DNA of 34,562 nt from a bacterium (GTDB taxonomy: Bacteria; Actinomycetota; Aquicultoria; Aquicultorales; Aquicultoraceae), in assembly GCA_902810715.1 (NCBI GenBank), contig CADDYS010000013.1, positions 1-34,562 on the forward strand. The letters are read 5' to 3'. Position 1 is the first letter of the stretch. Each line of letters starts with the position of its first letter. Below, piece after piece: positions 24,139-26,721 of the stretch. The notes below the pieces were generated by a model. The model ran no database searches. It was given only the letters and a program-made list of their open reading frames with translations, and was not told the origin of the DNA. Made by a program: the position numbers and the translations under genes.

Positions 24139-24206
24139 TAGCGCAGCCCTTATGTTTGCAAATTTATAAGGCAGAGCTAAAGCCCTGCGCTACGGGCCTG
24201 CGCTAC
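24138..24206. repeat. GTAGCGCAGG repeats forming a convergent hairpin
   Basis: GTAGCGCAG at 24138-24146 pairs with CTGCGCTAC at 24185-24193, and a further copy lies at 24198-24206. An inner GCAGGGC/GCTCTGC hairpin is also present. The units form the 3' end of the pabC-like gene and the spacer to the PBP stop, and could act as a bidirectional terminator. Confidence 0.65.
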
Positions 24207-25037
24207 GAGTGTTCTGAAGATACCCTTACTAACCAGTTCCATTAAGTTGTGTGTTATGGGGCCGGGTTTACTATTTCCGATTGATTTTTTGTCGATTTTA
24301 ACAAGAGGCATGATTTCCATGAGGGAGTTGGTTAGGAACAACTCGTCCATCCTATAGATATCATCGACATAGATGCTTCGCTGCAGCACCGAGTGGCCGG
24401 CTTGGGTAGCTGTCTTGATTACAAAACCGCGCATTATCCCCGGCAAGAGGCCGTCGACAACCGGTGGGGTATAGATCTTCTCTTCCTTTATCGCAAAAAC
24501 GTTTGTGTAAGAGCCCTCGGTTACATATCCCTGCTCATTCATAAGTATGGCCTCGTCGCATCCCGTGGTAGCCGCCTTTCTTCTTGCCAGGGCTGAGAGC
24601 TGGTAGCTTGTTGATTTTATCCTATTGAGTGGGTTATGAGAAAACCGGTATCCGGCTAGAGTTATAGCCGACATACCCTTTTCGTAAAGCGACTTGTCGT
24701 ATCCGGTAAAAGGGGCCGCCGTTATAACAACCGTCGGGTATGTTTTATCCAGAGGTCCTCTTGTTATGGTCAGGCGAATTCGTGCATCCGCTAAGTTGTT
24801 GACTTCTAAGATATTTTTGCAAGCATCGGACAGGACTTCTTTTTTGGGGACATTTTTGATCTCCAGGAACTTTGCCGAGTCGATCAACCGATTCAGGTGT
24901 TCTTCAAGTGCAAATATTGTGCCGCTGTATGAGCGCATGGTCTCAAAAAGACCGTCCCCATGCTGAAAACCGCTATCAAAAACACTTGCTCTCGCTTCGG
25001 CTTCATCAACAAACAGGCCGTCGATATAAACGATCAC
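24177..25037 (-). CDS. pabC: aminodeoxychorismate lyase-like PLP enzyme (class IV aminotransferase fold)
   Basis: 286 residues. VYIDGLFVDEAEARASVFDSGFQHGDGLFETMR is the class IV N-terminus in outline, with PLP Lys in NRIKSTSYQ and the phosphate-binding EGSYTNVF. In folate synthesis this enzyme releases 4-aminobenzoate and pyruvate from aminodeoxychorismate. Class IV enzymes also include branched-chain and D-alanine aminotransferases; the pabB-like gene directly upstream is the main reason for choosing pabC. The start is GTG 25037 with GGAGG 11 bases upstream. The last residues (AQARSAGL) are encoded by GTAGCGCAGG repeats. Confidence 0.78.
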   Translation of the reverse strand: MIVYIDGLFVDEAEARASVFDSGFQHGDGLFETMRSYSGTIFALEEHLNRLIDSAKFLEIKNVPKKEVLSDACKNILEVNNLADARIRLTITRGPLDKTYPTVVITAAPFTGYDKSLYEKGMSAITLAGYRFSHNPLNRIKSTSYQLSALARRKAATTGCDEAILMNEQGYVTEGSYTNVFAIKEEKIYTPPVVDGLLPGIMRGFVIKTATQAGHSVLQRSIYVDDIYRMDELFLTNSLMEIMPLVKIDKKSIGNSKPGPITHNLMELVSKGIFRTLVAQARSAGL

Positions 25038-25094
25038 TTAGCGTCTACCCTCCTTTAACACTCCACACATCAATTGACCATAAGAATTCTTAAA

Positions 25095-25217
25095 TAGTCA
25101 AAGGAGAAAATAGAGAATAGACCGAATAGAAAATGCTCTTAGTAACTTTATCCTCATCTTTCAAACTTATCCCACAATAATTCAATCTATTTTCTACTTC
25201 TCTATTTTCTATTCTCT
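25095..25217. repeat. A/T-rich inverted repeats of TAGAGAATAG words
   Basis: Near 25105-25121 the plus strand reads AGAAAATAGAGAATAG; near 25180-25216 the complement (CTCTATTTTCTATTCTCT) occurs more than once. The structure fills the spacer between pabB and pabC and might reduce read-through. Confidence 0.55.
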
Positions 25218-25218
25218 A

Positions 25219-25311
25219 GTACAGCGTCACTTTACTTTGATCGATAAGCATTCTTTGCTGTCGATAGGTAGTCTGCATTAATAAACCGTCAATTTATGTG
25301 TGACGCTGTAC
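25219..25311. mobile_element. 93-bp MITE-like element flanked by TA
   Basis: Terminal inverted repeats GTACAGCGTCAC (25219-25230) and GTGACGCTGTAC (25300-25311) are perfect over 12 bases, with weaker matching inside. Each end is flanked by TA, as for IS630/Tc1-mariner-type elements that duplicate a TA target. It encodes no protein. Its right end contributes the last codons and stop of pabB. No second copy is present in this window. Confidence 0.6.
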
Positions 25312-26721
25312 TAAGCCAAGCGCGTGAAACATAGCCCGCGCTTTATCAATGGTCTCCTCATACTCAGCGTCTGCATCCGAGTCGGCAACTATGCCGCCGC
25401 CCACCTGCAGGTATGTCTTATTACCCAACACGGTTATCGTTCGAATTGCGATGCTTGTATCCATCCTGCCGTTTGAGCTTATATAGCCAATAGCACCAGT
25501 ATAGATATTTCGACGGTGCGGCTCGAGTTCCTCTATTATCTCCATCGCCCTGACCTTCGGGGCGCCGGTTATCGAGCCCCCGGGGAAACTCGCTCTGAGC
25601 AAATCCACCGCGCCGACCCCGTCTCGAAGCCTTCCGGCAACGGTCGATACGAGATGATGCACAGCCTTGTAACTCTCGACAACCATCAGTTCGGGTACCG
25701 TAACACTTCCGTACTCACAAACCCTGCCCAGGTCGTTTCGCTTGACATCCACAATCATAACATGCTCTGCGGCATCTTTCTCGCTTGCACGTAGCTCTTT
25801 AATTGAGAGATCATCTTTTGTTTTGTCATTATAGTGCGGCCTGGTACCTTTAATCGGCCTGGTCTCGACATAGCGGTCGTCCATAAACATAAACCGCTCC
25901 GGCGAGGAACTTAAGATCGAAAAATCCCCATAGCTTAAGAAGGCTCCAAACGGGGCAGGGTTGCAATCGCGCAGCCTCTTATAAAGCGTGTAATGATCTA
26001 CTTTTAAGTCGGCGGCGAACCGCTGTGCCAGATTTACCTGAAAAATATCACCCTTGCTTATGTATTCTTTAGCTTTATCGATAATACGTCTATACTCCCT
26101 GCGGGTGAAATTTGAAGCCAGGTTGACGGCGGCACTGCCGTTCGCGCCGCTATACCTCGCCTGACGGCCCGCATTAACCCTTTTCATCAACCGGTTAAGA
26201 CGGTTTTTCGCCTTAGATTCATCGCCTCGGCTGTCGCCAGGTATATATGCGACTGCAAAGGCTCTTTTATCCCTGTGGTCGATGACCACGGCTTCGGTGT
26301 AGAAGCTGAGATAAATATCCGGTATCTTCTGATCGTCCAGGGCTATATCGGGGAGTTTCTCTATCTGCCGGTTTAAGTCGTAGCCGAAATATCCTACCGC
26401 GCCGCCGGTAAACGGAATCCTTGAGGAATCGTCGTTTTGAAGAGAGCCGAAGGATTTTATGGTCTGATCTACCGCTTCTAACGGGTCGCCTTCACGCCGG
26501 ATAAGTTCTCCGTTTTTGATTATTTCAATTAAGCGGTTTTTTGTCCTCAGGATAATTTTTGGGTTGCTTCCCAGGATGGAGTACCGGCCGTACTTGTCCA
26601 TCTCAAGAGCGCTATCGAAAAGAAACGGCAGCGGGTCGTTAAGCAAGCCTTCGAGGGCTGCAGAAGGATTTTCTATGTAGTTGATTTCTTCGACTAGCAG
26701 TTTTGGGATTTTATTTGACAT
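25294..26721 (-). CDS. pabB: aminodeoxychorismate synthase component I
   Basis: A 475-residue chorismate-binding enzyme. RPIKGTRPH carries the Lys typical of PabB where anthranilate synthase TrpE usually has Ala (PIAGT). Also present: SSSPERFM, DVKRNDLGRVCEYG, SFPGGSITGAPKVRAMEIIEELE and DTSIAIRTI. It makes 4-amino-4-deoxychorismate, with ammonia from a PabA-type glutaminase not in this window, and hands it to the pabC-like enzyme downstream. The C-terminus after HALGL (VQRHT, stop) comes from the end of a MITE-like element, but the conserved core is complete. GAGGGG lies just before the ATG. Confidence 0.88.
   Translation of the reverse strand: MSNKIPKLLVEEINYIENPSAALEGLLNDPLPFLFDSALEMDKYGRYSILGSNPKIILRTKNRLIEIIKNGELIRREGDPLEAVDQTIKSFGSLQNDDSSRIPFTGGAVGYFGYDLNRQIEKLPDIALDDQKIPDIYLSFYTEAVVIDHRDKRAFAVAYIPGDSRGDESKAKNRLNRLMKRVNAGRQARYSGANGSAAVNLASNFTRREYRRIIDKAKEYISKGDIFQVNLAQRFAADLKVDHYTLYKRLRDCNPAPFGAFLSYGDFSILSSSPERFMFMDDRYVETRPIKGTRPHYNDKTKDDLSIKELRASEKDAAEHVMIVDVKRNDLGRVCEYGSVTVPELMVVESYKAVHHLVSTVAGRLRDGVGAVDLLRASFPGGSITGAPKVRAMEIIEELEPHRRNIYTGAIGYISSNGRMDTSIAIRTITVLGNKTYLQVGGGIVADSDADAEYEETIDKARAMFHALGLVQRHT

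Follow-up and report, generated by a model that had tools for sequence, protein, structure and literature searches.

A composite IS630-type MITE with a stop-codon bias and its probable insertion into the end of pabB

The pabB locus and the unit inserted in it

The window analysed here, a 34,562-nucleotide stretch of contig CADDYS010000013.1 from a member of the Aquicultoraceae, belongs to a genome (G000) of 2.43 Mb in 153 contigs. On its minus strand lie pabB, which encodes a chorismate-binding enzyme of 475 aa (25294..26721), and, downstream of it, a gene for a class IV aminotransferase (pabC-like; 24177..25037) that formerly abutted pabB. The two are now separated by an insert with no open reading frame of at least 80 aa between positions 25058 and 25311, save the tail of pabB itself. 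This tail is of foreign origin. As an earlier note on this DNA had proposed, the last codons of pabB, V Q R H T (25297-25311), and its TAA stop (25294-25296) lie inside the element and come from its terminus (25294..25311, minus strand).

The earlier note described a 93-bp element with perfect 12-bp terminal inverted repeats and TA on both sides. The flanking TAs are seen at the window site, and the perfect inverted repeat is real, although its length is 14 bp rather than 12: TAGTACAGCGTCAC in the inner arm (25217..25230, plus strand) and GTGACGCTGTACTA in the outer, gene-side arm (25300..25313, minus strand), 69 nt apart. The 93 bp, here called B (25219..25311, minus strand), turned out to be only the pabB-side part of the insert, since a sensible empty site is obtained only when two further stretches are removed with it. 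Repeat A (25105..25216, ∼113 bp, minus strand), which has subterminal covarying arms, adjoins the end of B distal to the gene in the alignment of copies. Beyond A, many copies share another conserved stretch, LE (∼25058..25104, minus strand, its border against A approximate), an IS630-type end akin to the 3′ end of an insertion sequence in another genome, G003.

Excising 25058-25311 between the left (25056..25057) and right (25312..25313) copies of TA yields a pabB that ends in ...ALGLKEGRR*, whose TAA is followed at once by the GTG that opens the downstream gene. Because this excision restores the junction of pabB with the pabC-like gene, as in relatives without the unit, the insert measures 254 bp and its target was the TA of a pabB Leu codon, TTA. 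The target lies five codons ahead of the reconstructed original stop, so the earlier placement of the element exactly at the 3′ end of pabB was nearly right. Very probably, then, 25058-25311 is one inserted unit made of B, repeat A and LE, a composite IS630-type MITE with LE as its second end. The LE end of the window copy is degraded (ACACTCC-ACACATC), and the copy is therefore old. Elsewhere in the same genome, a locus on contig C89 (L058) holds LE and part of A without B, and the adjoining 208-codon frame stops at a TAG at the edge of A.

The nearest named relatives of this pabB include that of Candidatus Aquicultor secundus. In relatives, pabB touches or overlaps the next gene or ends shortly before it, and a comparison of C-termini, suggested by the earlier note, found ordinary ends wherever the element is missing: ALGLKEGSI* in Ca. 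Aquicultor secundus and G007, ALGLREDEL* in G002 and ALGLVV* in G005. No element was found at the pabB loci of G004, G006, G008 and G009. The pabB locus of G001 has kept LE and has neither B nor A. G003, which belongs to another genus, carries at the homologous pabB codon a short B, then A, then an LE-like end; this short B is a perfect palindrome with a tiny loop. Since the G003 pabB bears the short form and that of G002 bears none, the distribution calls for either parallel insertion or loss. The same G003 locus (L197, from pabB to the next gene) has further repeats, such as GTAGGGGCGGACCCTGTGTCCGCCC, between its A and its LE-like end, which form a cluster of small elements. The window locus shows how a coding end can be rewritten, from KEGRR to VQRHT, and how the stop-start junction of two genes can be parted.

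Dispersed copies of the element

The inverted repeat is not a chance feature, because the genome has 13 exact occurrences of the 11-mer TACAGCGTCAC and 0 of the reversed pattern, and because B is matched at 11 other places there (E ≤ 1.7e-12, 76-85% identity), with a weaker match on C17. The other copies that the earlier note said to look for are thus present in the genome itself. Across 60 genomes, B was matched in five: G000 itself, G001 (six matches), G003 (five), G007 (one) and G035 (one). The G035 match spans 19 bases only and was regarded as fortuitous. This search gave no B match in G002, which belongs to the same genus as the window, and the pattern of B's end had 0 matches in IMG/VR. 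Dispersed copies of this kind are what an IS630-type MITE should have.

Four genomes together offer 29 outer edges of B. By a motif test, B and A are joined at the same junction in 22 of these and A is absent from the other seven; LE was detected by its motif at nine of the 29 B sites, and two more were read by eye. TA on both sides was seen at the window site and at eight further sites, all picked by eye from the 29 as readable.

Kinship with IS630 elements

The outer end of B has the 3′-end layout of an IS630 subgroup: in CCGTCAATTTATGTGTGACGCTGTAC, which adjoins TA, the last transposase codons are followed by TGA and the terminal repeat. Both this end and LE resemble the ends of insertion sequences, with terminal inverted repeats of the IS630 kind. 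From the layout of its sequence, B is best understood as an IS630-type element reduced to its two ends by loss of the interior. The assignment of the element to TA-targeting, IS630-type MITEs in the earlier note holds up: B's end is laid out as in the IS630 subgroup, TA is duplicated and the pabB of relatives is ordinary.

An insertion sequence with matching ends, which the earlier note had also suggested seeking, was found only in part. In the window's own genome, no transposase or insertion sequence with both matching ends was found; its single DDE_3 match is to an 81-aa frame. The nearest matching transposase found is a 245-aa DDE_3 protein in G003, truncated on its 5′ side, so that the left end of this insertion sequence is unseen. 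The gene terminates in CCGTCAATTGATGAGTGATGGAGTAC next to TA, which is the LE type of end. Relatives of the G003 protein occur in 12 of 296 genomes of the phylum (G003 included), at seven IMG/VR loci and in 733 plasmid records, among them ISPna1 and ISMae29. These relatives are IS630 elements of ∼1.2 kb. Among 16 that were inspected, several have TA flanking the terminal repeat and the ends of the others were unreadable. The resemblance of ends suggests that an IS630-type transposase mobilised the window element.

Insertion at stop codons

At each of the 29 B edges, we located the stop of the adjoining open frame if this was 60 codons or longer. At 14 edges, the stop is a TAG in which the first G of the element follows the target TA; such edges make up 7 of 14 sites in G000, 5 of 7 in G001, 2 of 7 in G003 and 0 of 1 in G007. 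At four further edges the stop falls a few bases inside B, namely in pabB of G000 and G003 and in one gene of G000 and G001. For the remaining 11 edges, either there is no such frame or its stop lies earlier or in another place. The window has 376 intergenic TAs and 23 genes that end in TAA or TAG, which puts the share of such stops at 5.8%. Against this background, 14 of 29 has P = 1.5e-10, a figure that draws its background from one window and a simple ORF caller and treats as independent sites that are not fully so, one orthologous pair being among the 14.

All 13 distinct host frames that end at these junctions have a Pfam match, that on C25 being weak (E 6e-5), and the junction stop ends a real gene in 12 of the 13. 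In PheT (L251), for example, the last domain hits the profile end one residue short of the stop. The frame at L159, a second-frame site, has no Pfam match. When the flanks of the nine sites picked by eye for having both ends readable with TA are joined, TAG or TAA reappears at the target in seven; the two exceptions are the pabB sites.

Orientation is biased as well. All 14 genes with a junction stop face the B end, in a survey that covered the LE end only crudely, with a crude ORF caller that misplaced the genes of C12. LE likewise starts with G in most copies. The element is best described as a composite IS630-type MITE with a strong stop-codon bias in a fixed orientation. MITEs near gene ends are common; 14 of 29 on the stop itself, in one orientation and with the stop rebuilt, make a clean case. 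The element's first base renders its commonest landing site harmless.

Repeat A and the hairpins before it

Repeat A has a wider distribution of its own. A search found it in dozens of places (86 matching pieces, several per place), and a profile search of the collected loci gave 69 distinct copies, or 70 with the G003 pabB copy, orthologous copies being counted separately. Of the 70 copies, 42 have a tight palindrome immediately in front of A, 10 have a long B there and 18 have neither. Such palindromes occur at 19 of 1400 random positions and at A's other end in 3 of 70 copies. The palindromes are perfect and unrelated.

The association is also seen at tRNA genes. Where A follows, a palindrome starts from about the tRNA 3′ end in 23 of 24 cases; among 43 tRNA genes lacking A, 12 have one, some with what appears to be a decayed A. 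For tRNA-Tyr, G007 and G004 have neither A nor hairpin, G002 has the hairpin without A, and G000, G001 and G003 have both, with hairpins that differ in sequence. At tRNA-Ser, perfect palindromes of 21-23 bp run from the tRNA end and are followed by A in G000 (L054) and G001 (L231), and again the sequences differ. A second, A-like family of (A)GACTAGAAACTAG motifs lies at tRNA 3′ ends with no preceding palindrome (L051, L053, L206 and L207; also L052 near 1794 and L057 near 1830). In another pair of loci (L262 in G000, L237 in G001), from two species, the palindrome before A extends into the final codons of one and the same gene. That coding end differs between the species and is matched in each by the 3′ arm, which means that the two arms vary in concert.

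The arms of A, columns 3-14 and 92-102, covary: 93.4% of cells are paired, and double changes number 53, where shuffles give 18.2. RNAalifold found no stable consensus for A. A pseudoknot was considered and dropped, the second pair (S2) being no better than shuffles; a third pair (S3) exceeds them, probably as the same motif repeated. Repeat A poses the question of what positions a short repeat, across several genera, precisely after palindromes that resemble terminators.

Proposed history and competing explanations

In all likelihood, a non-autonomous IS630-type transposon of 254 bp, consisting of B, A and LE, inserted at the TA of the pabB Leu codon. A trans-acting IS630-family transposase would have recognised the outer end of B, GTACAGCGTCAC..., and that of LE, originally about GTACTCCATCAC..., and TA would have been duplicated on insertion. 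The insert provides the present end of pabB, the codons VQRHT and the stop, and separates pabB from the downstream gene, ahead of which the AAAGGAGGG stretch was left in place. The element starts with G, so TAG is always formed anew when it lands on the TA of a TAA or TAG stop in frame, and copies can therefore occupy stop codons at no expense to the protein. Repeat A, in turn, would insert behind hairpins. It may once have entered an IS630 MITE behind the hairpin of B, after which the composite would have spread. That A was captured inside the MITE is probable, given that A occurs alone beside hairpins and that B can form one. The orthologous pair C25 (G000) and C30 (G001), in which A and LE are kept while B and an unrelated palindrome swap, stands against the simple version of this history.

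The 93-bp B might instead, in line with the earlier note, be the MITE that inserted here, beside an older A and LE. It has complete arms with TA on both sides, LE occurs without B at the G001 pabB, and some B copies are without A by the motif test. Removing B alone, however, would leave A and LE in pabB, an arrangement seen in no relative, whereas removal of all 254 bp gives the relatives' junction; together with the B-A junction common to most B copies, this makes insertion of B alone improbable. It is more improbable still that B is an immobile host hairpin, such as a transcription terminator. B does fold well as RNA (z −4.06 in the gene sense, with a loop of 69 nt), and the short B sits where other A copies have a terminator-like palindrome. 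But no T run follows the stem in the gene sense, where GAGAATAG / GAGAATAGAAAA is found instead, and dispersed copies, IS630 ends with transposase codons and clean empty sites speak for mobility. The combination by which the earlier note would have recognised an ordinary terminator, no other copy together with relatives carrying the same sequence, was not encountered. Rfam gave 0 matches in the window and, over ten loci, neither A nor B had one above the gathering score. A role in termination may nevertheless have been added to the mobile origin. Least credible of all is a REP-type element moved by Y1 transposases. Y1_Tnp matches are present in 7 of 7 genomes, and the element is palindromic and near gene ends, but a search of the loci around the Y1_Tnp places, made for A only, found no A, and a DDE transposase suits both the TA duplication and the IS630-like ends. 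The Y1_Tnp genes (L271-L290), found in all seven genomes searched, encode ∼225-360 aa, by which length we take them to be RAYT-like, and have repeats in their flanks.

For a mobile IS630-type MITE, the excess at stop codons could still arise by survival only, with random insertion into TA and loss of the other landings. Coding insertions are selected against and stop landings rebuild the stop. We give this explanation a little less than an even chance. Intergenic TAs, however, would be equally harmless and are far commoner in the window, and all 14 junction-stop genes face the B end although LE mostly starts with G as well. A bolder scheme supposes that the element is actively steered to frame ends in a single orientation, for instance through transposition coupled to translation or transcription termination, with the G kept for the stop. 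Repeat A would then be a family apart, hairpin-directed and with covarying arms, whose spread takes it behind terminators, tRNA terminators among them. We consider this scheme unlikely.

Comparison with known systems

The closest parallels are ISPna1 and ISMae29, of an IS630 subgroup within the IS630-Tc1-mariner superfamily, which share with the window element the last transposase codons, the TGA, a TGAC-containing terminal repeat and the adjacent TA. They measure ∼1.2 kb and encode a transposase, whereas the window element is 254 bp long, gene-free and holds the unrelated repeat A. In the portion of the literature covered, no description of the B-A-LE family or of a stop-codon bias in IS630 MITEs was found.

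Other small repeats are compared here by description. YPAL/RU-2 of Yersinia differs in duplicating 3-26 bp and in having no TA ends. The SPRITE and BOX repeats of the pneumococcus form clusters of small repeats, one inserted into another and some of them terminator-like (PMC10969869), and in this they recall the composite described here. RUP of Streptococcus pneumoniae, a 107-bp intergenic MITE thought to be moved by IS630-Spn1, is likewise short and non-coding, with a TA target and IS630-resembling ends (PMC2229807); the window element is unlike it in being composite and in its bias towards stop codons.
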